Assembly: GCF_000017205.1 (NCBI RefSeq)
Contig: NC_009656.1
Location: forward strand, 3,414,001-3,478,000
DNA length: 64,000 bases
Source: Pseudomonas paraeruginosa PA7
Lineage (GTDB): Bacteria; Pseudomonadota; Gammaproteobacteria; Pseudomonadales; Pseudomonadaceae
Reading direction: 5' to 3'
Shown here piece after piece: positions 382-20,559 of the stretch (the stretch's first letter is position 1; the number at the start of each line of letters is the position of its first letter). Below the pieces are notes generated by a model. That model saw only the letters and a program-made list of their open reading frames with translations, was not told the DNA's origin and made no database searches. The translations under genes and the position numbers were made by a program.

Positions 382-1590
382 ATGTCCGTCGATATCCCCC
401 CCATCCCGCCGGCGCAAGACAGCGCGCGGCAGAACGTCACCCTGCAGATCGTCTCGGTGGTGCTGTTCACCTTCATCGGCTACCTGACCATCGGCATTCC
501 GCTGGCGGTGCTGCCCGGCTACGTGCACGACGACCTCGGCTACGGCTCGGTGCTGGCCGGCCTGGTGATCAGCGTGCAGTACCTCGCCACCCTGCTCGCC
601 CGGCCCTACGCCGGGCGCGTCATCGACGGCCTCGGGCCGAAGCGCGCGGTGCTCTACGGCATGGCCGGCAGCGCCGCGAGCGGGCTGTTCATGCTGCTCT
701 CGGTGGCGTTCCAGGGCTGGCCGGCGCTGAGCCTGGCCAGCCTGCTGGTCGGCCGCCTGGTGCTCGGCGCGGCGGAAAGCCTGGTCGGCTCGGCGGCGAT
801 CGGCTGGGGCATCGGCCGGGTCGGCGCGCCGCACACCGCCAAGGTGATTTCCTGGAACGGTATCGCCAGCTACGGCGCCATCGCCCTCGGCGCGCCGCTA
901 GGGGTATTGCTGGTGCAATGGCTGGGACTGTGGAGCATGGGCGCGGCGATCGTCCTGCTCGGGCTGCTCGGCTTCGCCCTGGCCTGGCCGAAGCTGCCGG
1001 CGCCGCTGGTGCACGGCGAACGCCTGCCGTTCCACCATGTGCTCGGCCGGGTCACCCCGCACGGCATGGGCCTGGCGCTGGGCGCGATCGGTTTCGGCAC
1101 CATCGCCACCTTCATCACCCTCTACTACGCCAGCCGTGGCTGGGCCCACGCGGTGCTCTGCCTGAGCGCCTTCGGCGGCTGCTTCATCGGCGCCCGGCTG
1201 CTGTTCGCCAATAGCATCAACCGGCTCGGTGGCTTCCGCGTGGCGATCGTCTGCCTCGGCATCGAAAGCCTCGGCCTGCTGTTGCTGTGGAGCGCGCCGA
1301 ACCCCTGGATCGGCCTGGCCGGCGCGGCGCTCACCGGCTTCGGCTTCTCCCTGGTGTTCCCGGCCTTCGGCGTGGAAGCGGTGAACCTGGTGCCGGCTTC
1401 CAACCGCGGCGCGGCGCTGGGTGCCTACTCACTGTTCGTCGACCTGTCGCTGGGCGTCACCGGGCCGCTGGTGGGCTTCGTCGCCAACCTGTTCGGCTTC
1501 CGCTCGATCTTCCTCTTCGCCTGCCTGGCCGCGCTCAGCGGGCTGGCCCTGGCCGTCGCGCTGCACCGGCGCAGCCGCCGGCCCGGCTAG
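382..1590 (+). CDS. MFS transporter, YhhS/UPF0226 type
   Basis: A 402-aa polytopic membrane protein with about twelve hydrophobic segments. The N-terminal part ([20 protein letters not shown], then [17 protein letters not shown]) closely resembles E. coli YhhS, an MFS exporter of unknown natural substrate. The ATG at 382 is preferred because hydrophobic segment 1 and the family's N-terminal pattern start shortly after it; the ribosome binding site is weak. The 3' end overlaps the convergent ercS by 4 bp (1587-1590). Nothing links it functionally to ethanol oxidation apart from its position at the edge of that locus. Confidence 0.85.
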
Positions 1591-3320
1591 GGCCTGCCAC
1601 CGTCTCCGGCGCCGCGGGGAGCGCCCTGGGCCTCGCCGAGCAAGGCGCTTAGGGCGGCACGCAGCTTGCCGGGCTTCAGCGGCTTGTTCAGCAGCGGCAC
1701 GCCCAGTCGATTCAGCGCGCGACGGCAGTCGTCGCTGCGGTCGGCGGTGATCATCACCGCCGGGATAGCGGCGCCGTAGTCCCCGCGCAACGCGCCCAGC
1801 AACTGGCAGCCGGTGGCGCCGTGATCGAGATGGTAATCGGCGAGGATCACGTCGGGCGCGCGTCCGCCGAGCACCCGCCGGGCGCTTTCCAGGTCGCTGG
1901 CGGTGAGCACTTCGCAGCCCCACTGGCCGAGCAGCGCGGCCATGCTGAAGAGAATCTCGGTCTCGTTATCCACCACCAGCAGCCGCCTTCCCGGCAGCGG
2001 ATCGCCGGCAGACATCCGCGCCGGCGCCTCGCCGGGCGCTGGCCGCGATGGCTCGCGGACCACCGGCACCTCGATGGCGAACAGCGAGCCTCGGCCGGGA
2101 ATCGAATGCACCTCGATGCGATAGCCGAGGATGCCGGCGATCCGGTCGACGATGGCCAGGCCCAGGCCGACGCCACGGCGCTCGGAAGCCCGGCCGACGT
2201 CCAGTTGGTTGAACTCGAGGAAGATCGCCTGCAACTGGTCGGCGGGAATGCCCCGGCCACTGTCCCAGACCTCCAGGCGCACGTTGCCGCCACGCCGGCG
2301 CGCGCCCAGCAGTACGGCGCCACGCTCGGTATAGCGGCAGGCGTTGCTGAGAAAGTTGCGCAGGATCCGCGACAGCAGGCGCGCGTCGGTGCGCACCGCC
2401 AGCCGGGGAATCCGCGCGCGCAGCGCCAGGCCGGAGGCCCGCGCGACTTCCTCGAATTCGGAAACCAGCGGCCCGAGCAATTCGTCCAGGGAGTAGTCGT
2501 CCAGCTCCGGACGGATCGCGCTCTGGTCGAGCCGGGCGATCTCCAGCAGGTCGGTGAGCAGCGTCTCGGCGCCCTCCAGCGCCAGATGGGTACGCTCCAC
2601 CAGTTGCAGCTCGGCGGCCGGCAGGCCACGCTCGCGCAGGGTATCGACCAGCAGGCGCGCCGCATTGAGCGGTTGCAGCAGGTCGTGGCTGGCGGCGGCG
2701 AGGTACTTGTCCTTGCTGTGGTTGGCGGCCTCGGCGGCGTCGCGCGCCTGGCGCAACTGGCGATTGAGCTCTTCCAGCTCGCGGGTACGCCCGGCCACCC
2801 GCCGCTCCAGTTCCTCGTTCATGCTCTGCAGGCGCTGCTGGGCCTGGACCCGCTCGGTGATGTCGGCGACGAAGCCTTCGACCAGTTCCTCTTCGTCGTG
2901 CCTGAGCAGCAGGTTCATCAACACCTCGATATGGCTGCCATCCTTGCGCCACAGGCGCGTCTCGTAGCCGAACAGGCCGCCGCGCTCGCGCAGCAGCGTG
3001 CGGATCCGCCGCATCTCGGCCTCACCGCCGACGAACAACTGCCCGGCCATGTCCTCCAGCGACCAGAGCACCTGTTGCGGATCGTCGTAGCCGAGCATCT
3101 GCGCCAACGCCGGATTGGCGGCGCGCAGGCCGTGGCCGAGGCTGGCCTGGAAGATGCCGTGCACGGCGTGTTCGAACAGCCACTTGTAGCGGTTGCGCTC
3201 CGCCTCCAGTTCCTCCAGGCGCGCCAGCAGCTCCGGGTAGTGGCTCTTGCGCGCGGAGTGGCTGCCCAGGCCGAGCAATCCGGCCAGGGCCTCCTGCTGT
3301 CGCTCAGAGGGCCTCGCCAT
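1587..3320 (-). CDS. ercS: Hybrid PAS sensor histidine kinase ErcS
   Basis: Predicted 577-aa cytoplasmic hybrid kinase of the ethanol-oxidation regulatory network. In order it has a PAS domain (about residues 40-160), a coiled coil ending in [20 protein letters not shown] (H-box), an ATPase domain with N-box [14 protein letters not shown]1 VWDSGRGIP and G2 GVGLGLAIV, and a C-terminal receiver with VVDNE, the phospho-acceptor region ILADYHLD and the conserved lysine in LLNKPLKP. No membrane segment is visible. The start at 3320 is preferred over a longer frame because an AGGTGG-like Shine-Dalgarno lies just upstream and the extension looks like ercA read out of frame. It overlaps ercA by 17 bp, so coupled translation is likely. 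Named by similarity to PA1992. Confidence 0.9.
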
Positions 3321-4467
3321 AGACCACCTCGACGTCACGCTGGCTCGATTCGCGCGGGTTGGTGAGGATGCACGGGTCCTGCATCGCATGGCGCGAAAGG
3401 AAGGGGATGTCGGAACTGCCGACCCCGTGCAGGGCGAGGCTCTCGTGGAAACCGACGGCACGCTTGAAGGCGATCAGGTGGTCCACCAGGCGCTGGCGGA
3501 CCTGCGCCTGGGTCAGGCCGCGGCAGTCGATGCCGAAGGTCTCGGCGATCACCTTGAAGCGCTCCGGCGCGGCGCTGTAGTTGAATGCCACCACGTGTTC
3601 GACCAGCGCCGCGTTGCACAGCCCGTGCGGCAGGTCGAGATAGCCGCCGAGGCTGTGCGACATGGCGTGCACCGCGCCGAGGATGGCATTGGAGAAGGCC
3701 AGCCCGGCTTGCATGCTGCCGAGCATGATCTTCTCGCGCAGGGCGATGTCGCCGGGGTTGGCGATCATCTGCACCAGGTTGCCGTCGATCAGGCGCATCG
3801 CTTCCAGCGCGTGGGGATCGGTCAGCGGGCCGTGGCCGGTGGAGACGAACGCCTCGATGGCGTGCACCAGCGCATCGATGCCGGTGCAGGCGGAGAGGAA
3901 GGGGTCCATGGTCAGCGTGGTTTCCGGGTCGATCAGCGAGACGTCGGGCACCACCGCCTTGCTCACCACGGAAAACTTCATGCGCTCGTCCTGGTTGGAA
4001 ATGATCACGAACTGCGAGACGTCCGCCGAAGTCCCGGCGGTAGTCGGGATCAGGATCAGCGGCGGGCTCGGCACCCGCAGCCGGTCGACGCCTTCGAACT
4101 CGAGGATGCTGCGGCCATGGGCGGCGACGATGCCGATGCCCTTGGCGCAATCCATCGGGCTGCCGCCGCCCACCGCGACGATCACGTTGCAGCCCTGGCT
4201 GCGGTAGAACTCGGCGCCGAGCATCACCTCCTCGACGCGCGGGTTGGGCGAGATCGCGGTGTACAGGCAATAGTCGACGCCCTGCCCCTCCAGGCTCGCC
4301 TGGATGTCGGCGACCCAACCGGCGGCGAGCACACCGGGGTCGGAGACCAGCAGGACCTTGCGCGCACCGAAGGTCTTCGCGTAGTTGGCGACGCTGTGCC
4401 GGCAGCCGGCGCCGAAGATGATCTCGGGCGAGACGAATTTACGCAGTTGGCTGAGGTCGTGGCTCAT
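3304..4467 (-). CDS. ercA: Iron-containing alcohol dehydrogenase ErcA
   Basis: A 387-aa group III (iron-dependent) alcohol dehydrogenase. The nucleotide-binding loop is GGGSPMDCAKG near residue 92. The metal ligands are expected from GIDALVHAIEAF (Asp and His) and AVHAMSHSLGGYLDLPHG (two His), all present. In P. aeruginosa the orthologue (PA1991) is reported to influence the regulation of ethanol oxidation rather than being a main catabolic enzyme. Start at 4467 matches the family N-terminus; an in-frame ATG at 4479 adds four residues and cannot be excluded. Its stop codon lies inside the 5' end of ercS, suggesting one transcript. Confidence 0.92.
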   Translation of the reverse strand: MSHDLSQLRKFVSPEIIFGAGCRHSVANYAKTFGARKVLLVSDPGVLAAGWVADIQASLEGQGVDYCLYTAISPNPRVEEVMLGAEFYRSQGCNVIVAVGGGSPMDCAKGIGIVAAHGRSILEFEGVDRLRVPSPPLILIPTTAGTSADVSQFVIISNQDERMKFSVVSKAVVPDVSLIDPETTLTMDPFLSACTGIDALVHAIEAFVSTGHGPLTDPHALEAMRLIDGNLVQMIANPGDIALREKIMLGSMQAGLAFSNAILGAVHAMSHSLGGYLDLPHGLCNAALVEHVVAFNYSAAPERFKVIAETFGIDCRGLTQAQVRQRLVDHLIAFKRAVGFHESLALHGVGSSDIPFLSRHAMQDPCILTNPRESSQRDVEVVYGEAL

Positions 4468-11984: not shown

Positions 11985-12296
11985 CACTTCATTCCTCCGG
12001 GGAGACAGGACAAGGCACGGGCGCCAAACGGCGCTCGCCGCCATCCTAGGAGCCTCCGCCGCGCGGCCGAATCCTGCTTTGGGCGCCCTCGCCTACTCCC
12101 TTCGCAGTAGAGCCTCGGAAGGCCTCGCGGGGGGCTTTGGCAGCAAGTCCAAGTCATGTCCCGGCCGGGAAGTCTTCCCGGGCGAATCGGGCGATCTTCC
12201 GTTCCCGCCGGCGAGCCCCGCTTCCACCATGAAACCGCCGCGGCCCGAGCAGCGGCCTGCCGTTTCTCGACCCTCACTCCAAACGGGAACCCGATC
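11985..12296. promoter_or_regulatory. Divergent exaA/exaB control region
   Basis: A 312-bp non-coding stretch between the start codons of exaB (minus) and exaA (plus). It must hold both promoters. The most striking element is the interrupted palindrome CTACT-N8-AGTAG at 12093-12110, about 187 bp from exaA and 109 bp from exaB. In P. aeruginosa exaA and exaBC are reported to be controlled separately by the Exa/Era and Erb regulators; assignment of this element to either is inference. Confidence 0.6.
12093..12110. promoter_or_regulatory. CTACT-N8-AGTAG inverted repeat
   Basis: A perfect 5-bp inverted repeat with an 8-bp spacer in the exaA/exaB intergenic region. The CTACT half matches the beginning of the two CTACTAC sites upstream of erbR, suggesting recognition by the same family of regulators (EraR or ErbR). 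No footprint can be inferred from sequence alone. Confidence 0.45.
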
Positions 12297-14168
12297 ATGA
12301 CAACAAGAACCTCACCCGCCCCTGCCGGCCTCCTGCGCCCGAGCCTGCACTGCCTCGCCTTCGCCGTCGCCCTGGGCAGCGGTGGCGCCGCGCTGGCCAA
12401 GGATGTGACCTGGGAGGACATCGCCAACGACGACAAGAGCACCGGCGACGTGCTGCAGTACGGCATGGGCACCCATGCCCAGCGCTGGAGCCCGCTCAAG
12501 CAGGTCAACGCCGACAACGTGTTCAAGCTGACCCCGGCCTGGTCGTATTCCTTCGGCGACGAGAAGCAGCGCGGCCAGGAGTCCCAGGCCATCGTCAGCG
12601 ACGGCGTGATCTACGTGACCGCCTCCTACTCGCGGCTGTTCGCCCTCGACGCGAAGACCGGCAAGCGCCTGTGGACCTACAACCACCGCCTGCCCGACGA
12701 CATCCGCCCGTGCTGCGACGTGGTCAACCGCGGCGCCGCGATCTATGGCGACAAGGTGTTCTTCGGCACCCTCGACGCCTCGGTGGTGGCGCTGAACAAG
12801 AACACCGGCAAGGTGGTGTGGAAGAAGAAGTTCGCCGACCACGGCGCCGGCTACACCATGACCGGCGCGCCGACCATCGTGAAGGACGGCAAGACCGGCA
12901 AGGTCCTGCTGATCCACGGCAGCTCGGGCGACGAGTTCGGCGTGGTCGGCCGCCTGTTCGCCCGCGATCCGGATACCGGCGAGGAAATCTGGATGCGCCC
13001 CTTCGTCGAAGGCCACATGGGCCGCCTGAACGGCAAGGACAGCACGGTCACCGGCGACGTCAAGGCGCCGTCCTGGCCGGACGATCGCAACTCGCCGACC
13101 GGCAAGGTCGAGTCCTGGAGCCACGGCGGCGGCGCTCCCTGGCAGAGCGCCAGCTTCGACGCCGAGACCAACACCATCATCGTCGGCGCCGGCAACCCCG
13201 GCCCGTGGAACACCTGGGCGCGCACCGCCAAGGGCGGCAACCCGCACGACTACGACAGCCTCTACACCTCCGGCCAGGTCGGGGTCGACCCGAGCAGCGG
13301 CGAGGTGAAGTGGTTCTACCAGCACACCCCCAACGACGCCTGGGACTTCTCCGGCAACAACGAACTGGTGCTGTTCGACTACAAGGCCAAGGACGGCAAG
13401 ATCGTCAAGGCCACCGCCCACGCCGACCGCAACGGCTTCTTCTATGTGGTCGACCGCAGCAACGGCAAGTTGCAGAACGCCTTCCCCTTCGTCGACAACA
13501 TCACCTGGGCCAGCCACATCGACCTGAAGACCGGCCGCCCGGTGGAGCGCGAGGGCCAGCGCCCGCCGCTGCCGGAACCGGGGCAGAAGCATGGCAAGGC
13601 GGTGGAAGTATCGCCGCCATTCCTCGGCGGCAAGAACTGGAACCCGATGGCCTACAGCCAGGACACCGGGCTGTTCTACGTGCCGGCCAACCACTGGAAG
13701 GAAGACTACTGGACCGAGGAGGTCAGCTATACGAAGGGCAGCGCCTACCTGGGCATGGGCTTCCGGATCAAGCGCATGTACGACGACCACGTCGGCAGCC
13801 TGCGCGCCATGGACCCGGTCAGCGGCAAGGTGGTCTGGGAACACAAGGAACACCTGCCACTCTGGGCCGGGGTGCTGGCCACCGCCGGCAACCTGGTGTT
13901 CACCGGCACCGGCGACGGCTACTTCAAGGCCTTCGACGCGAAGAGCGGCAAGGAACTGTGGAAGTTCCAGACCGGCAGCGGCATCGTCTCGCCGCCGATC
14001 ACCTGGGAACAGGACGGCGAGCAGTACCTCGGCGTGACCGTCGGCTACGGCGGCGCCGTGCCGCTGTGGGGCGGCGACATGGCCGACCTGACCCGGCCGG
14101 TGGCCCAGGGCGGTTCCTTCTGGGTATTCAAGCTGCCCAGCTGGGACAACCGCACCGCCAGCCGCTGA
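12297..14168 (+). CDS. exaA: PQQ-dependent quinoprotein ethanol dehydrogenase ExaA
   Basis: A 623-aa periplasmic eight-bladed beta-propeller enzyme oxidising ethanol and other alcohols with PQQ and calcium. The signal peptide ends near [13 protein letters not shown]. The adjacent-cysteine disulfide that covers PQQ is seen in RPCCDVV. The catalytic aspartate is in [11 protein letters not shown]; the residue two after it is Ser rather than Asp, which fits a calcium enzyme and not a lanthanide (XoxF/PedH-like WDYD) enzyme. The start at 12297 is the known one, with the signal peptide directly after it. Electrons pass to ExaB, encoded divergently. Confidence 0.97.
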
Positions 14169-14221: not shown

Positions 14222-14875
14222 ATGAAGACCTTCCTCCTCTGCGCCGCCCTGCTCGGCGCCGGCCTGGCCCAGGCCGCCGACGACATCGACGACGACAGCG
14301 TCCGCATCATCGCCGGCTGCCGCCTGGAGCCCGGCGCGCGCTGCGCCAGGGCCGACCTGCGCGGTGCCGACCTGCGCAACCTCGACCTCGGCCGCATCGA
14401 CCTGGCCGGCGCCGATCTCTCCGGCGCCGACCTGCGCCACGCCAGGCTCGACCTGGCCAACCTGGAAAAAGCCGACCTGCGTGGCGCCGACCTCACCCGC
14501 GCCAGCCTGCAGCAGGCCAACCTGCGCGGCGCCGACCTCTCCGGCGCCAGGGCGGTGGCGATCCAGGCCTGGGGCCTGTTCGCCCAGGGTGCCCAGTGGC
14601 AGGGCGCCGACCTTACCGCCGCCTACCTGGAGTTCGCCCGACTCAGCGGCGGCCGCCTGCACCAGGCCACGCTGCGCGCCGCCGACCTGGAGATGACCTG
14701 GCTGTCCCGCGCCGATCTCAAGGGCGCCGACCTGCGCGACGCCAACCTGCAGGAAGTCAAGCTGGCCGAGGCCAATCTGGAGGACGCCGACCTGCGCGGC
14801 AGCAAGGTGCGCTTCGGCAACTTCCAGGGCAGCAACATGCAGGGTTGCAAGGACTGCCCCGCGGGCTGGCGGTGA
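14222..14875 (+). CDS. Secreted pentapeptide-repeat protein
   Basis: A 217-aa protein with a cleavable signal peptide (MKTFLLCAALLGAGLAQA) followed by many A(D/N)LxG-type pentapeptide repeats such as GADLRGADLRNLDL. These fold into a right-handed quadrilateral beta-helix. Four cysteines lie outside the helix, two near the N-terminus (GCRLEPGARC) and two near the C-terminus (GCKDC), suggesting disulfides in the periplasm. A homologue sits next to exaA/pedE-type genes in other pseudomonads. A role in ethanol oxidation, for example scaffolding periplasmic enzymes, is plausible but unproven. Confidence 0.85.
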   Translation: MKTFLLCAALLGAGLAQAADDIDDDSVRIIAGCRLEPGARCARADLRGADLRNLDLGRIDLAGADLSGADLRHARLDLANLEKADLRGADLTRASLQQANLRGADLSGARAVAIQAWGLFAQGAQWQGADLTAAYLEFARLSGGRLHQATLRAADLEMTWLSRADLKGADLRDANLQEVKLAEANLEDADLRGSKVRFGNFQGSNMQGCKDCPAGWR

Positions 14876-14901
14876 AGCGCCGGACAGCAGCGAGGATGCC
14901 C

Positions 14902-15579
14902 CTACCCGACGCTGCCGCAAGCCTTCTCGGCGAGCGGCAGCGGCAGGCCCAGCCGCAGCACGCCGCTGTCGATGGCCCGGTGCACCAGTTCCGCCTGGGT
15001 GCTCACCTGCAGCTTCTGCTTGAGCAGGCTGACATGGTTTGACACGGTCTTGCCGCTCACCCCCAGCTGCTCGGCCACCTGACGCATGGCCAGGCCGCGC
15101 GCGAGCAGGCGGAATATCTCGAACTCACGGCGGGTCAAGTCGCGCAGGATGGCCTCGCCCTCCTCGCTCCGCTGCTGGCACGCCAGGCGGATGGCCAGGC
15201 CCTGCTCGATGTAGACCTGCCCGGCGAGCACCCGGCGCACCGCCTCCAGCAGCGTCGCCGGTGCCGCGCGCTTGGTCAGGTAGCCGCGGGCACCGGCGTC
15301 CAGTGCCTGGCGCACCAGCGCCAGCTCGTCGTGCAGGCTGAAGAACAGCACGCGCAGCTGCGGCAGGCGCTGGCGCAGCCGGCGGGTCAGCTCCACGCCG
15401 CTGATTCCCGGCAGGTCGAGGTCGACGATGACCAGCGAGGGAATCTCGCGCTGCACCGCCAGCAAGGCGTGCTCGCCGTCGCCGGCCTCGCTCAGTTGCA
15501 CGTCGGGCAGCAGGCCCCGTAGCAACCCGGCGAGGCCTTCGCGGACCACGGGATGGTCATCCACCAGCAGGATCTTCAT
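14902..15579 (-). CDS. eraR: LuxR/NarL-type response regulator EraR
   Basis: A 225-aa two-component regulator (also called ExaE) that activates exaA in P. aeruginosa. The receiver has LLVDDHPVVREG, the phospho-acceptor region VIVDLDLPGISG and the lysine in YLTKRAAP. The C-terminal LuxR-type helix-turn-helix runs through LTRREFEIFRLLARGLAMRQ to SNHVSLLKQKL. A strong AAGGAGG site precedes the ATG. Normally its kinase gene eraS lies immediately upstream on the same strand; here only a short possible remnant is found, so the regulator appears to be an orphan. Confidence 0.93.
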   Translation of the reverse strand: MKILLVDDHPVVREGLAGLLRGLLPDVQLSEAGDGEHALLAVQREIPSLVIVDLDLPGISGVELTRRLRQRLPQLRVLFFSLHDELALVRQALDAGARGYLTKRAAPATLLEAVRRVLAGQVYIEQGLAIRLACQQRSEEGEAILRDLTRREFEIFRLLARGLAMRQVAEQLGVSGKTVSNHVSLLKQKLQVSTQAELVHRAIDSGVLRLGLPLPLAEKACGSVG

Positions 15580-15614
15580 GCTTTCCTCCTTTCAGTCGCC
15601 ACACCCGGCGACGG

Positions 15615-15718
15615 TCACAGGCGCAGCTCGCAGCCGCGTCCATCGTCGCGCCCGCCCGGTCGAGGGAACCGCCACGCCGCCGCAGGCGGATCCGCGCGTG
15701 GCGCCGGCATGCCGTGCC
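15615..15718 (-). pseudogene. eraS: Possible 3' remnant of the sensor kinase gene eraS
   Basis: Immediately before eraR, one minus-strand frame ends in GGRDDGRGCELRL and stops at 15615-15617. This looks like the last strand of a histidine-kinase ATPase domain. No H-box, N-box or G-box is found between here and erbR, and only about 800 bp separate the starts of eraR and erbR. In PAO1 a complete kinase gene (PA1979) occupies this position. The assignment of this fragment is tentative; the absence of a complete kinase is direct from the sequence. Confidence 0.4.
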
Positions 15719-15859
15719 TCAGGGCGCAGCCCGGCAGGCGTGTGCGGCCGAGCAGGCGCCAGGCGTGTCGGGCTGGACATGCCGGGCGTAGAGGAAATCG
15801 AAGCCGAGCAGGCTGAGGATCAGCAGGATGGGCAACACCAGGGTGACGGCGATGCGCAT
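15719..15859 (-). CDS. 46-aa single-membrane-segment ORF upstream of eraR
   Basis: A short ORF starting MRIAVTLVLPILLILSLLGF with a good Shine-Dalgarno (AAAGGAGG) 7 bp upstream, so it is probably translated. One strongly hydrophobic segment is followed by a Cys-containing tail (GACSAAHACRAAP). It could be the membrane-anchored start of a deleted kinase, whose later part is lost, or an independent small membrane protein. It is in a different frame from the putative kinase remnant downstream. The published ExaD kinase of strain ATCC 17933 was described as soluble, which argues for the small-protein view. Confidence 0.45.
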   Translation of the reverse strand: MRIAVTLVLPILLILSLLGFDFLYARHVQPDTPGACSAAHACRAAP

Positions 15860-15921
15860 GGCGGCGCCTCCTTTGGATGGTCATTGCCAAAGCATGCTAG
15901 GACGCCGCCAGCCGCGACAGG

Positions 15922-15938
15922 CTACTACCTTGGTACTG
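15922..15938. promoter_or_regulatory. CTACTACCTTGGTACTG operator-like site
   Basis: Contains the perfect palindrome TACC-TT-GGTA (15926-15935) inside CTACTACCTTGGTACTG. It lies about 65 bp before the short ORF at 15859 and would control the eraR-side transcript, erbR or both. The TAC-rich inverted arrangement fits NarL/LuxR-type regulators. Confidence 0.5.
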
Positions 15939-16028
15939 CCGGGGCGCTACCTTCCCCCAGGTTCCGGCCGCCGCGCGGACGCGGCCGGCATCGGTGCCAG
16001 GACATGGGCCATGCGCAAGAGTGGCCGT

Positions 16029-16043
16029 CTACTACTTTGGTAG
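16029..16043. promoter_or_regulatory. CTACTACTTTGGTAG operator-like site
   Basis: Differs at one base from the first 14 bases of the site at 15922-15938, lies 107 bp from it, and sits on the erbR side of the intergenic region. The repetition at this spacing makes chance unlikely. Autoregulation of erbR or cross-regulation by EraR are the obvious candidates. Confidence 0.5.
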
Positions 16044-16376
16044 CGCTTCGCCCCTCTCAACGTCGAATTTCCAAAGCAGCGCACCTGTCTTGTAATGGCC
16101 GCTACAAGAAGAACTACAGAGAAATCGCCATGCCTCGCCTTGCCCACGCTCCGTCCAGCCTGCCACTGGCGCCGTCCGGCCGCGCCCGCCAGCGTCCCGG
16201 TCGATCTCCTCGCCGATCCCTCATCCCGGGCCGCCTGGCCCCGCCAGGCCAGGGCGGCGCCGCGCTGGGCTATCGCCGCCGCGGCTGCTACCGTGACGCC
16301 AGCGGCGTCCGCCGAACGCCAGCCTCGCGCTGAACCGCCACCCGCCGCCCATAACGACAATAACGAGGTCCTGGCC

Positions 16377-17042
16377 ATGTACAAGATCCTGATCGCCGAC
16401 GATCACCCGCTGTTCCGCGAAGCCATCCACAATGTCATCGCCGACGGGTTTCCCGGCAGCGAAGTCATGGAGACCGCCGACCTCGACAGCGCCCTGGGCC
16501 TGACCCAGGCCCACGACGACCTCGACCTGATCCTGCTCGACCTGAACATGCCCGGGATGCACGGCCTCAACGGCCTGATGAACCTGCGCAACGAGGCCCC
16601 GACCATTCCCGTGGTGATCGTTTCCGCCGAGCAGGACAAGCAGGTGGTCCTGCAGGCCATCACCTACGGCGCGGTGGGCTTCATCACCAAGTCCTCGCCG
16701 CGCGCGCAGATGACCGAGGCCATCGAGCAGATCCTCAACGGCAACGTCTACCTGCCCTCGGACGTGATCCGCACGCAGAAGAGCTCGCCGCGCCGTTGCG
16801 GCCACGAGGAGCACGCGATCGCCCCGGAACTGCTGCAGGCCCTGACCCGCAAGCAGTTGCTGGTGCTGGAGCGAATGACCAAGGGTGAGTCGAACAAGCA
16901 GATCGCCTACAACCTGGAGATCGCCGAGACCACGGTGAAGGCGCACGTCTCGGCGATCCTGCGCAAGCTCAGGGTGCACAACCGCGTGCAGGCCATCCTC
17001 AGCGCCAGCGACATCGACTTCGCCGCCTACCTGCGTCGCTGA
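16377..17042 (+). CDS. erbR: Response regulator ErbR (AgmR), LuxR family
   Basis: A 221-aa two-component response regulator reported to activate exaBC, pqqABCDEH and other regulatory genes of ethanol oxidation; known as AgmR in older work. The receiver shows [13 protein letters not shown], the phospho-acceptor region [13 protein letters not shown] and the lysine in [11 protein letters not shown]. The DNA-binding domain is [20 protein letters not shown] followed by [14 protein letters not shown]. The start at 16377 has a GAGGT ribosome binding site. It has no adjacent dedicated kinase; NahK/ErcS' and ErcS are encoded nearby. Confidence 0.94.
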
Positions 17043-17051
17043 GGCCCGCCC

Positions 17052-17912
17052 ATGCCCGACCGCCGCACCCTGCTGCTCACCATCCTGGCGATGCTGGCCT
17101 TCGCCGGCAATTCGCTGCTCTGCCGGGCAGCGCTGAAGGACACCGCCATCGACGCGGTCAGCTTCACCGCCCTGCGCCTTGTTTCCGGGGCGCTCATGCT
17201 GCTCTTGCTGCTGCGCCTGCGCCGCGCCCCGGCCGGCGCGCGCGGCGGCTGGCGCGGCGCGGCGGCGCTGTTCGTCTACGCCGCGGCGTTCTCCTACGCC
17301 TATGTACAACTGGACGCCGGCACCGGCGCGCTGCTGCTGTTCGGCGCGGTGCAGGTCAGCCTGCTCCTGGCCGGGCTGCTGCGCGGCGAGCGGCCGGGTA
17401 CGCAGGCACTGGCCGGTTTCCTGCTGGCACTGGGCGGCCTGCTCTACCTGTTGCTGCCGGGAGCCAGCGCGCCGCCACTGGGCGGCGCCCTGCTGATGCT
17501 GCTGTCCGGCCTCGCCTGGGGGCTCTATACCCTGCTCGGCCGGGGCGGCGGCGACCCCCTGGCGGTCAGCGCCGGCAATTTCCTCCGCGCCATCGCCTTC
17601 GCCGCCCTGCTGCTCCTGGTCTTCCACGGGCAACTGCGGCTGGACGGCCCCGGGTTGCTCTATGCGCTGCTCTCAGGCGCCCTCGCCTCCGGCCTCGGCT
17701 ACGCCGTCTGGTACAGCGCGCTGCCGGGGCTGACGGCGCTCCAGGGAGCCTCGGTGCAGCTCAGCGTGCCGGTGCTCGCCGCCCTCTGCGGCGCGCTGCT
17801 GCTCGGCGAGCCGCTCGGCCCACGGCTGCCGCCGGCGACCCTGGCGGTGCTCGGCGGGATCGCCCTGATCCTCCTCCCGCGCCTGGGCCGCGCGGCGCGC
17901 GAACGCGGCTGA
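17052..17912 (+). CDS. DMT-superfamily (EamA) transporter
   Basis: A 286-aa membrane protein with about ten hydrophobic segments in two EamA repeats, beginning RTLLLTILAMLAFAGNSLLC. It starts 9 bp after erbR and is probably cotranscribed with it. Substrate is unknown; family members export metabolites or amino acids. Its stop is only 1 bp from the stop of nahK on the opposite strand, with no terminator between. Confidence 0.8.
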   Translation: MPDRRTLLLTILAMLAFAGNSLLCRAALKDTAIDAVSFTALRLVSGALMLLLLLRLRRAPAGARGGWRGAAALFVYAAAFSYAYVQLDAGTGALLLFGAVQVSLLLAGLLRGERPGTQALAGFLLALGGLLYLLLPGASAPPLGGALLMLLSGLAWGLYTLLGRGGGDPLAVSAGNFLRAIAFAALLLLVFHGQLRLDGPGLLYALLSGALASGLGYAVWYSALPGLTALQGASVQLSVPVLAALCGALLLGEPLGPRLPPATLAVLGGIALILLPRLGRAARERG

Positions 17913-17913
17913 A

Positions 17914-20559
17914 TCAGACCACGCCTTCGCGCTCCAGCAGGTGGCAGAGCGCGGTCTTCAGCTTCATCGGCCGTACCGGCTTGTGCATCAGGGTATGGCC
18001 AAGCTCGCGGACCTGCTGCTTGAGGTCGTTGCTGTAGTTGGCGGTGATCATCAGCGCCGGCAGTGGCGAACCGCGCCGGGCATTGATCGCGGCGACCGCG
18101 TCGATGCCGTTGCGCTGGTCGTCGAGGTGATAGTCGACGATCAGCAGGTCGGCCTCCGCGTGGTAGTTGTCGACCTGGCGCGCCAGGTCTTCCTCCGACA
18201 ACGCCGTCACCACCCGGCAGCCCCAGGCCTCGAGCAGCGTGCGCATGCCGGCGCAGATCGCCGCGTCGTTGTCCAGCACCCACACCCGCGAACCGCGCAG
18301 CCGCTCGCGCAGGTCGTCCGCGCAGGCCGGCGGCTCGGCGCGGCCGCGCGGGGCGTGGCGGGCCAGCGGCACCTCGATGGCGAAGCACGAGCCCTTGCCC
18401 GGCCGCGAGCCGACCCGGACCCGGTGGCCGAGCATGCGGGCGATCTTGTCGACGATCGCCAGCCCCAGGCCGAGCCCGCGGTCCTGTTGCGAGCGCTGCA
18501 ACTCGCCGCGCTTGAACTCCTGGAATATCTCGCCGAGCTTGTCGGCAGCGATGCCGACCCCGGTGTCCCAGACCTCGATAGACAGGCTCTGGCGCTGCCG
18601 GCGGCAGCCAAGCAGCACGCGCCCGCGGGGCGTGTAGCGGATGGCGTTGGACAGCAGGTTGCGGAGGATCCGCGCGAGCAGTTGCTGGTCGCTGCGGACC
18701 AGCGCCCCGCAGGCCACGAACTCCAGGCGCAGGCCCTCGCTGACGGCCACCTGGCGGTACTCCGCGGCCAGGTTGCCGAGCAGCTCGCCGATCTCGAACG
18801 GCGCGATATCCGGGCGGATCACCCCGGCGTCCAGCTTGGAGATGTCCACCAGCGTGCCGAGCAGATTCTCCACGTCCTCCAGCGAATGACTGATGTTGTT
18901 CACCAGCGCCTCGTTGCCCTGCCCGACGCCACCGCGCTCCTGCAACGCGCTGGTGAACAGCCGCGCGGCGTTCAGCGGCTGCAGCAGGTCGTGGCTGACC
19001 GCGGCAAGGAACTTGGTCTTCGACAGGTTGGCCTGTTCCGCCTCGCGCTTGGCCTCGCGCAGGCGTGCCTCGACCTGGCTGCGCTCGTGGATCTCGCGCT
19101 TGAACTGGTCGTTGAGGCTGGTCAGCTCGGCGGTGCGCTCGCGCACCCGCTGCTCGAGGTTCTGGTAGGCCTGGTGCAGCGCCTCGGCGGTGCGCCGGCG
19201 CTCGGTGATGTCGCGGATCAGCACGAACAGGCCGACCACCCTGCCGTCGGCCTGGCGGTTCGGCACATAGGAACGCTGCATGTAGCGCTCCTGGCCGGAC
19301 AGCGCGGTCTCGGCGATCTCGAAGGTCACGCTCTCGCCGGCCAGCGCACGCTCGAAATACGGCTCCAGGCGCCGGCAGTGCTCGGCGCCGTGCACGTCGC
19401 GCAGGTTGCGTCCGAGCATCGAGCCGCTCGGCCAGCGGTACCACTGCTCGTAGACCTTGTTGGTGAATTCGTAGACCAGCTCGTCGCTGAGATAGGCGAT
19501 CAGCGCCGGCACCTGGTCGGTGATCAGGCGGATCCAGCGTTCGCTGGCGCGCAGTGTCTCGGCATGGCGATAGCGTTCGGTGATATCGGTGAAGGTGTTG
19601 ACGAAGCCTCCGGTGGGCAAGGCATGGGTGCGGATCTCCAGCACCCGGCCGTCGAACAGGCGCTGCTCCAGCACCGCGCGCGGAGCGCCCTGGGCATCGC
19701 GGCTGCACGGCGTGATCAGCGGCAGTTCGCTCTCCGCCATGACTTCGGCGAAGGCCCGGTGGCCGCCGATCGGGGCCAGACCGCAGAGTTCCAGGAAGCG
19801 TCGGTTCCACAGTTCCAGAGTACCGTCGGCGCCGACCATCGCCACGCCCTGGGACAGGTTGTCCACCGCCCGCTGCAGCAGGTGCGACTTCTGCGCCAGA
19901 GCCTGCTCGCGACGCGCGGTTTCGCTGAGCTTGATCTCGGTGACGTCGGTGTAGAGCACCGCCAGCCCGCCGTCGCGGGTCGGCCGCTCGCTCATGCGCA
20001 GCCAGCGCTCGTCGCGCAGGCGGTACAGGGTCTGCTCGTCGCCGCCGCGCTGCTCCTCGACGATCAGCCCGCCGCTGCGCGCCAACCGACGCAGCTCGGC
20101 CTGGCGCATGCCGGGACCGATGCGCGCGCGGGAATTGGCCCAGAGCGCGCGGAAGCGCTCGTTGAACAGGACGATGCGGCGTTGCCCGTCGAACAGGACG
20201 AAGGCATCGGAAATGCTCTCGATGGCATCGAGCAGGTGCTGGTGGGCGGTTTCGGCGCGCAGGCGGGCGTCGCTGAGCAGCTGGTTGCTGGCCCGCAGCT
20301 CGGCCATCGCCTGGCTCAGCGCGTCGGTGCGCTCACGGACCTGCTCGGCCAGCACCACGGAATACTGGAAGGCGCCATAGGCATCGTCGCTCTGCGCGGC
20401 GCTCGACTCGATGCGTCCGATCAGCGCCTGGTTGATCCGCTGCAACTTGTGCCGCTCTTCCTCGAGGGCGACGACCCGCGCCTGCAGCTCAGCGACGGAC
20501 ACCTCCGCGGGGTCGGCCAATGGCGACCCCGGTGAAGGTCTGGTTGATATGCATGCCAT
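17914..20559 (-). CDS. nahK: Multi-PAS hybrid histidine kinase NahK (ErcS')
   Basis: An 881-aa cytoplasmic hybrid kinase. After an N-terminal coiled coil it has three PAS-like domains (about 115-220, 235-345 and 360-480), a second coiled coil, H-box [18 protein letters not shown]-box ILRNLLSNAIRYT, G1 VWDTGVGI, G2 GLGLGLAIV and a C-terminal receiver with VLDNDAAI, LIVDYHLDD and LMHKPVRP. It corresponds to PA1976, named ErcS' in ethanol-oxidation work and NahK as the NosP-associated kinase feeding the HptB pathway. The ATG at 20559 has a GGAGAG site and overlaps nosP by 71 bp. ErcS has the same core but one PAS domain. Confidence 0.93.
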   Translation of the reverse strand: MACISTRPSPGSPLADPAEVSVAELQARVVALEEERHKLQRINQALIGRIESSAAQSDDAYGAFQYSVVLAEQVRERTDALSQAMAELRASNQLLSDARLRAETAHQHLLDAIESISDAFVLFDGQRRIVLFNERFRALWANSRARIGPGMRQAELRRLARSGGLIVEEQRGGDEQTLYRLRDERWLRMSERPTRDGGLAVLYTDVTEIKLSETARREQALAQKSHLLQRAVDNLSQGVAMVGADGTLELWNRRFLELCGLAPIGGHRAFAEVMAESELPLITPCSRDAQGAPRAVLEQRLFDGRVLEIRTHALPTGGFVNTFTDITERYRHAETLRASERWIRLITDQVPALIAYLSDELVYEFTNKVYEQWYRWPSGSMLGRNLRDVHGAEHCRRLEPYFERALAGESVTFEIAETALSGQERYMQRSYVPNRQADGRVVGLFVLIRDITERRRTAEALHQAYQNLEQRVRERTAELTSLNDQFKREIHERSQVEARLREAKREAEQANLSKTKFLAAVSHDLLQPLNAARLFTSALQERGGVGQGNEALVNNISHSLEDVENLLGTLVDISKLDAGVIRPDIAPFEIGELLGNLAAEYRQVAVSEGLRLEFVACGALVRSDQQLLARILRNLLSNAIRYTPRGRVLLGCRRQRQSLSIEVWDTGVGIAADKLGEIFQEFKRGELQRSQQDRGLGLGLAIVDKIARMLGHRVRVGSRPGKGSCFAIEVPLARHAPRGRAEPPACADDLRERLRGSRVWVLDNDAAICAGMRTLLEAWGCRVVTALSEEDLARQVDNYHAEADLLIVDYHLDDQRNGIDAVAAINARRGSPLPALMITANYSNDLKQQVRELGHTLMHKPVRPMKLKTALCHLLEREGVV

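Follow-up and report, generated by a model that had tools for sequence, protein, structure and literature searches.

An eraR gene without a neighbouring kinase

The window, by which we mean the whole 64,000-nucleotide stretch of DNA analysed, is part of a single-contig Pseudomonas chromosome of 6.59 Mb that is listed as 100% complete. It bears an ethanol-oxidation cluster: ercS- and ercA-like genes, pqq genes, exaC, exaB, exaA, a pentapeptide-repeat gene, eraR, erbR and an ErcS'/NahK-like hybrid kinase gene, under names that in part follow the P. aeruginosa gene order. The product of exaA (pedE; 12294..14168, + strand) is a Ca-type PQQ ethanol dehydrogenase with the motif NDAWDFSGN, not DxD, and this DFS-type enzyme is the sole PQQ alcohol dehydrogenase found in the window's genome (E 1e-100). 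The orphaned gene eraR (pedR2/exaE; 14902..15579, − strand) encodes a response regulator with a receiver and a LuxR-type DNA-binding domain (Pfam Response_reg and GerE), while erbR (agmR/pedR1; 16377..17042, + strand), which encodes the master activator of the cluster, is 94–96% identical to its counterparts in eight same-genus relatives with a full cluster. The synteny expected of eraR is thus present: exaA starts 3.3 kb away on one side and erbR 0.8 kb away on the other. Beyond erbR lies the hybrid kinase (17914..20559, − strand; PAS, HisKA, HATPase and receiver domains), which, again from the P. aeruginosa gene order, we take to be ErcS'/NahK-like; the hybrid kinase frame at the opposite end of the cluster (1587..3461, − strand; start unrefined) is presumably ercS-like, judging by position.

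The 797 bp between eraR and erbR are where eraS would be expected. A HATPase_c search of the whole genome gave 73 hits, two of them in the window, at 2061–2387 (the ercS-like frame) and 18361–18690 (the hybrid kinase), and found no kinase domain in 15580–16376. Nor did a PedS2 query find EraS or PedS2 elsewhere in the complete genome: it returned two weak core matches only (E 1e-15; 36% and 32% identity), both in kinases with their own regulator alongside. Measured against the PedS2–PedR2 system, the window has no neighbouring HAMP-HisKA_3-HATPase kinase, its genome has no lanthanide enzyme PedH with DxD, and all four genes of the PedA1A2BC transporter are absent from the locus; the genome-wide search, which covered PedC of the four transporter proteins, found none at E 1e-40. 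At gathering thresholds there was no Rfam match in 14800–17100.

The interval is a deletion scar

Among the 24 other genomes of the genus that were searched, eight have 6.0–6.1 kb between eraR and erbR. One strand of this longer locus carries a leader ORF, pedS2 (encoding a membrane kinase with HAMP, HisKA_3 and HATPase domains) and eraR; the other carries pedA1, pedA2, pedB and pedC (the lanthanide transporter), a rhodanese gene of the PP_2666 type and erbR. The window's interval is colinear with these relatives in four blocks that score above chance and a fifth, weak one. Three of the four are found with all eight relatives, namely the upstream end of erbR (41.0–50.0 bits), the start of the rhodanese gene with its upstream region (94–128 bits) and the pedA1/leader intergenic region with the leader ORF (111–157 bits), and the fourth, the kinase block, with three of the eight (46.4–55.4 bits). 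As a control, 500 shuffles of the interval that preserved length and dinucleotides reached at most 41.0 bits against all the relatives' intervals and 37.4 bits against the kinase part.

The remnant of pedS2/eraS (15615..15710, − strand) amounts to 31 codons: the former start codon and a few codons, then an ATP-binding RDDGRG box. Positions 15628–15717 match the kinase DNA of three relatives (blastn, up to 55.4 bits), and 15683–15710 align to the kinase start; the GGRDDGRGCELRL tail is the end of the 31-codon frame (15615–15710, − strand), which opens at the former kinase start codon. Of the rhodanese gene there remain the upstream region and the first codons (16008..16149, + strand; ATG at 16130), at 75–82% blastn identity to eight relatives with E down to 1.6e-31. 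A possible remnant of its 3' part (16247..16298, + strand) aligns over 35–53 bp at 75–81% identity (E 7.6e-4 to 9e-3), colinear in all eight relatives; by score (31.9–36.5 bits) this piece lies inside the shuffle range (maximum 41.0) and is not above chance, and a reversed-sequence control gave one hit, with E 0.009.

The gap between eraR and erbR is therefore a deletion scar. The existence of several separate colinear remnants argues against an assembly error, and that these are small and of ordinary divergence, that the genome is a single contig listed as 100% complete, and that the kinase is likewise missing from this junction in P. jinjuensis and further species, together make either an assembly error or a deletion confined to this strain hardly credible. 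The original prediction, of a 797-bp gap without a kinase motif, of a kinase gone from beside an intact eraR and of a minus-strand tail perhaps left over from it, is borne out by the HATPase_c search, by the genome-wide PedS2 query together with the intact frame and pocket of eraR, and by the kinase block (46.4–55.4 bits against at most 37.4 in shuffles), respectively. An intact eraS elsewhere in the genome was looked for and no copy was found, and the idea that the junction never carried the gene fails, given that the relatives and the remnants show that it once held a kinase. Two implications of the prediction did not hold: the loss is not particular to the window strain, since it recurs in several genera, and it is not confined to the kinase, since the genome also lacks PedH, and the locus pedA1A2BC and most of the rhodanese gene.

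The prediction was also right that a kinase had been there and, in all likelihood, wrong about which one: in its ancestral state the locus most probably encoded the long membrane protein PedS2, not the short cytosolic EraS (ExaD) of PAO1. EraS, known as PA1979 from PMC12997753 and PMC6115532, as far as their accessible text goes, is reported to have 48% coverage of PedS2 (PMC12997753) and for that reason looks like a shortened form, which suggests that the P. aeruginosa protein, as published accounts describe it, may be a reduced lanthanide sensor. The position of pedE also differs between loci: it adjoins eraR in the window, in P. jinjuensis and in genome G017, unlike in two genomes (G001 and G003; loci L031, L033, L122 and L123) where pedE is on the same contig, about 20–30 kb from eraR.

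A retained leader ORF and two promoter boxes

Upstream of the lost kinase gene the leader ORF is intact (46 codons; 15719..15859, − strand) and encodes a putative single-span membrane micropeptide, its membrane location being suggested by hydrophobicity. The ORF precedes pedS2 in all eight same-genus loci with a full cluster (L031–L038), and its hydrophobic part is conserved (pN 0.03–0.05, pS 0.23–0.37 against five of the eight loci). A search that required an ATG and a strongly hydrophobic stretch gave a leader candidate in 27 of 96 full-kinase loci, the eight same-genus ones among them and a few being questionable, and no candidate in the remaining 69; no Pfam family matched the micropeptide. 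After kinase loss, related-looking ORFs run straight into eraR in Pseudomonas sp. WS 5079 and in G136, and P. jinjuensis has a similar reading frame. Its survival beyond the loss of the kinase suggests that the leader either has an independent role or is translationally coupled to eraR.

The former pedS2R2 promoter region holds a perfect copy of the TACCAAGGTAGTA box (15923..15935, − strand), which is conserved upstream of eraR operons, and alignment with relatives places a second perfect TACCAARGTAGTA box (16030..16042, − strand) upstream of the rhodanese remnant. Perfect copies of TACCAARGTAGTA in the whole genome number two, both in the eraR–erbR gap. Since the pattern read backwards matches more often (five genome matches at no more than one mismatch, against three for the pattern itself), one-mismatch hits alone mean little. 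At that tolerance, a search of the whole interval finds the box upstream of eraR at 18 of the 23 loci without a kinase and at 8 of the 9 with a shortened one, and all 26 share one orientation. Of the full-kinase loci, in which the 420 bp preceding the kinase were searched, 44 of 96 have it, against 0 of 126 control pieces of that length. Our guess would be that the box binds ErbR.

Kinase loss accompanies loss of PedH and of the transporter

In the genus, EraR (at least 61% identity) was found in 11 of 25 genomes (the window's included), exactly those with a PedE-type enzyme. PedS2 was present in 8 of the 25, the very genomes that combine PedE with a second, 55–57% identical enzyme, and PedC in 18 of the 25, exactly those with a PedH-type enzyme. 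DxD is a mark of lanthanide use, and the second enzyme is PedH-type, with D-x-D in 36/36 hits examined; PedE-type hits have DFS in 63/63 (some genomes are counted more than once in both figures). Three genomes have PedE without PedH, PedC and PedS2: the window's, G017 and G004, the last of which we take to be P. jinjuensis from its identical EraR (L064/L039). Ten further genomes of the genus (G005, G008–G011, G015, G016, G018, G021 and G022) carry a PedH-type enzyme and PedC without PedE, EraR or PedS2; with no EraR, pedH there is not EraR-controlled.

For the family level we surveyed an even sample of a larger group, 198 Pseudomonadaceae genomes in all. Of these, 90 were found to have EraR, and the mapped loci comprise 69 with a full-length kinase, 6 with the kinase core only and 15 with none; G118 (L232), where a contig end leaves only 245 bp upstream, is provisionally counted among these 15, among the 21 genomes with no full kinase and among the 21 kinase-less EraR proteins below. 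Among the matches listed, a PedH-type hit (E 1e-160) occurs in 67 of the 69 full-kinase genomes, 66 of them with PedE and one (G180) with the PedH-type enzyme only; the two others are G072 (100% complete, PedE only) and G060 (78% complete, neither enzyme). By the same measure, none of the 21 genomes with a core or no kinase has a PedH-type hit: 20 have PedE only (one a fragment) and G088 has neither. Each genome's second hit is presumed to be PedH-type from its rank, as PedE-type rows come first among the matches listed. The 128 mapped loci, in which the named loci are included and some genomes appear twice, agree: all four transporter genes adjoin 91 of 96 full kinases, and three of the four lie beside one more, as against 0 of 32 shortened or absent kinases; in 9 of the 128 the kinase lacks its N-terminal part. 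Absence of a PedH-type hit inside a locus was not used as evidence, since, among the named loci, 7 of the 25 that have a full kinase and over 9 kb of downstream sequence contain none.

Kinase state changes at least 15 times on the ErbR DNA tree (8 forced by supported branches) and 16 times on a concatenated protein tree (10 forced); the trees are quick searches with many rows partly filled, and for the concatenated tree stops in tblastn rows were set to gaps. The five supported pairs on the ErbR-only tree all agree in losing kinase and PedH together. Because five are too few for significance we built the concatenated protein tree, on which 7 of 7 supported independent pairs agree (sign test, p 0.0156); the number of independent pairs rises to 13 when unsupported branches are allowed. 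For this test G060 was left out, G180 was coded as having PedH, and G072 and G088 were coded as lacking it. Full-length PedS2 also occurs without neighbouring transporter genes, at loci L069 (P. piscis) and L239 and in genome G072. A PedH-type hit is absent from the G072 genome and, as far as the locus itself extends, from P. piscis L069. These are possible intermediates of loss.

EraR evolves under relaxed but purifying selection

The window's EraR is 61–79% identical to ten other EraRs of the genus and keeps a complete phosphorylation pocket (D7, D8, D53, S81, K103). Its dN/dS is 0.31–0.32 against the three closest relatives and 0.40 against L035, compared with 0.07–0.18 among the five kinase-paired eraR pairs tested: selection on it is relaxed but still purifying. 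At its C-terminus the protein extends by about 13 further residues (14902–14945, − strand); gaps stand at alignment position 219 in 90 of the 91 EraRs with a full kinase and in 15 of the 21 without one.

The original prediction had offered two fates for EraR, another kinase or inactivity. That the protein is a dying passenger, non-functional without its kinase, and that exaA is driven by ErbR alone, would fit its rate of evolution, which on the dN/dS scale is some 1.7 to 4.5 times that of kinase-paired copies, and direct activation of catabolic genes by PedR1 has published support in the accessible part of PMC13390443. We nevertheless consider inactivity improbable: with dN/dS well below 1 (about 0.31), an intact frame, and the five pocket residues and the boxes kept, EraR does not look like a decaying gene, and of the 25 genomes in the genus, the 11 that carry PedE have all kept it, the three kinase-less ones included.

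Elsewhere the pocket has changed. An alignment of 119 distinct EraR proteins (91 beside a full kinase, 7 beside a kinase core, 21 with none; nine duplicates dropped) has D8, D53 or S81 altered in 8 of the 21 kinase-less proteins, corresponding to 5 state changes on the tree, and in 0 of the 98 that have a full or core kinase next to them. D8 is substituted in G026, G030, G046, G144 and Pseudomonas sp. WS 5079; G026 additionally has Ala in place of S81. The phosphorylated aspartate itself is replaced at five orphan loci (L223, L235, L236, L237 and L074), by Glu in four genomes (G028, G144, G152 and G156) that cluster together on the ErbR tree, and by Gly in Pseudomonas sp. WS 5079. Across four supported tree pairs, pocket loss against kinase loss averaged 2.6 in the expected direction, 0 against and 1.4 without difference. 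This decay in other orphans suggests a third option that the prediction had left out, namely that EraR may act independently of phosphorylation.

We also compared divergence at positions 10–23, 54–59, 82–87 and 104–109, which we take to be general response-regulator contacts with the kinase, with that of the rest of the receiver; the test is exploratory, as the positions were picked after the per-position ranking was known, and L232 was dropped. The presumed contacts diverge more in 18 of 19 orphan EraRs relative to their nearest full-kinase relative (rows not independent), as compared to 3 of 7 kinase-core EraRs, 19 of 80 full-kinase EraRs and 844 of 3203 full–full pairs of similar distance. 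For the window's EraR the values are 0.344 at the interface and 0.193 in the rest of the receiver; its DNA-binding domain, at 0.303 from the nearest full-kinase relative, has diverged too, so the divergence extends beyond the kinase interface.

These data bear on whether EraR has been taken over by a kinase encoded elsewhere (for example ErcS, ErcS'/NahK, or an AgtS-like or NarX-like protein), in which case a new signal would control exaA and the circuit would be truly rewired. The intact pocket residues would suit such a takeover, as would the closest kinase core in the genome (749495–750133), which adjoins a regulator 38% identical to EraR, and a second, as yet unnamed kinase has been postulated for PedR2 in P. 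putida (PMC6115532, from the text accessible to us). Against this, PedS2 belongs to the HisKA_3 class and no orphan HisKA_3 kinase was found, the genome's two each having their own regulator; ErcS' belongs to the HisKA class; and the interface divergence suggests contacts that have been loosened, not kept. We regard takeover by such a kinase as a serious minority possibility.

A proposed route from lanthanide switch to orphan regulator

The reading that we prefer, with a probability of roughly 0.78, is that the interval is the scar of several deletion steps, in which the lanthanide kinase and importer were deleted once there was no PedH, and EraR was kept as the activator of exaA. The ancestral locus would have consisted of two divergent units, leader peptide–pedS2–eraR and pedA1A2BC–rhodanese–erbR. 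In a lineage without PedH, the lanthanide-sensing kinase would have had nothing to switch and the importer nothing to feed, and both were presumably deleted; we infer this order of losses and attach no dates to it. EraR would have been retained because activation of exaA still requires it.

For P. putida, the accessible text of PMC6115532 describes PedS2 as phosphorylating PedR2 when lanthanum is absent, and PedR2 as activating pedE and repressing pedH; PedR2 is required for pedE and works weakly without PedS2, which is credited there to an as yet unnamed kinase. The low pedE promoter activity reported without PedS2 (PMC6115532) counts against our main reading, as an orphan EraR could by the same token be weak. 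The pedS2R2 promoter is described as depending solely on PedR1, the ErbR homologue (PMC13390443, accessible part). In the window strain ErbR would transcribe eraR from this old promoter, EraR activity would then track EraR amount, and exaA would probably no longer respond to lanthanum, the brake having gone. EraR itself may be phosphorylated by a non-partner kinase or a small phosphodonor, or have some activity in the unphosphorylated state; in several other lineages, orphan EraRs have gone further and lost pocket residues. A common cause, for instance habitat or genome streamlining, could also lie behind the losses of both kinase and PedH.

Taken further than our main reading, and held quite tentatively, the loci could form a serial change from a two-component switch to a one-component-like activator: PedH and importer are lost, the kinase is reduced to a soluble core and then to none, and EraR loses its contact surface and then its phosphorylation residues. 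The window's EraR would have been caught after kinase loss and before pocket loss, and the retained micropeptide may be its only local input; in one clade the change from Asp to Glu possibly builds in an active state.

Comparison with known systems

The lanthanide switch PedS2/PedR2 of P. putida KT2440 shares with the window the regulator family and the neighbours exaA/pedE and erbR/pedR1, and is likely the ancestral state; unlike KT2440, the window lacks PedS2, PedA1A2BC and PedH, of which only scraps are left. EraS/EraR (ExaD/ExaE) of P. aeruginosa likewise has exaA under EraR control in a species without functional PedH, as far as PMC12997753 and PMC6115532 are accessible, and P. aeruginosa retains its cytosolic kinase whereas the window retains none. 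Parts of the cluster are also reported missing in P. aeruginosa and in P. capeferrum TDA1 (PMC12997753, accessible text). A functional regulator beside a kinase pseudogene is described for RisA/RisS, with the unlinked kinase RisK, in Bordetella pertussis (PMC5020355, in part); that case concerns one species and its likely rescuing kinase is known, while the EraR case recurs across genera, tracks the loss of one enzyme and has no known rescuing kinase. To the class of aspartate-less receivers (PMC4395418, in part) the five orphan EraRs from other genomes would belong, four of them with Glu, while the window's EraR, with D53 present, does not.

We recognised no description of a kinase-less EraR, or of its link to PedH, in the open-access literature. 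The pieces are of known kinds, while the recurrent co-loss of kinase and PedH and the decay of the orphan receiver are apparently undescribed as far as that literature shows. Set beside these systems, the related species offer a natural series (full kinase, kinase core, no kinase, altered phosphosite) that shows how a sensor–regulator pair is dismantled once its signal loses meaning, and that makes it testable whether an orphaned response regulator survives through a new kinase or through independence of phosphate.
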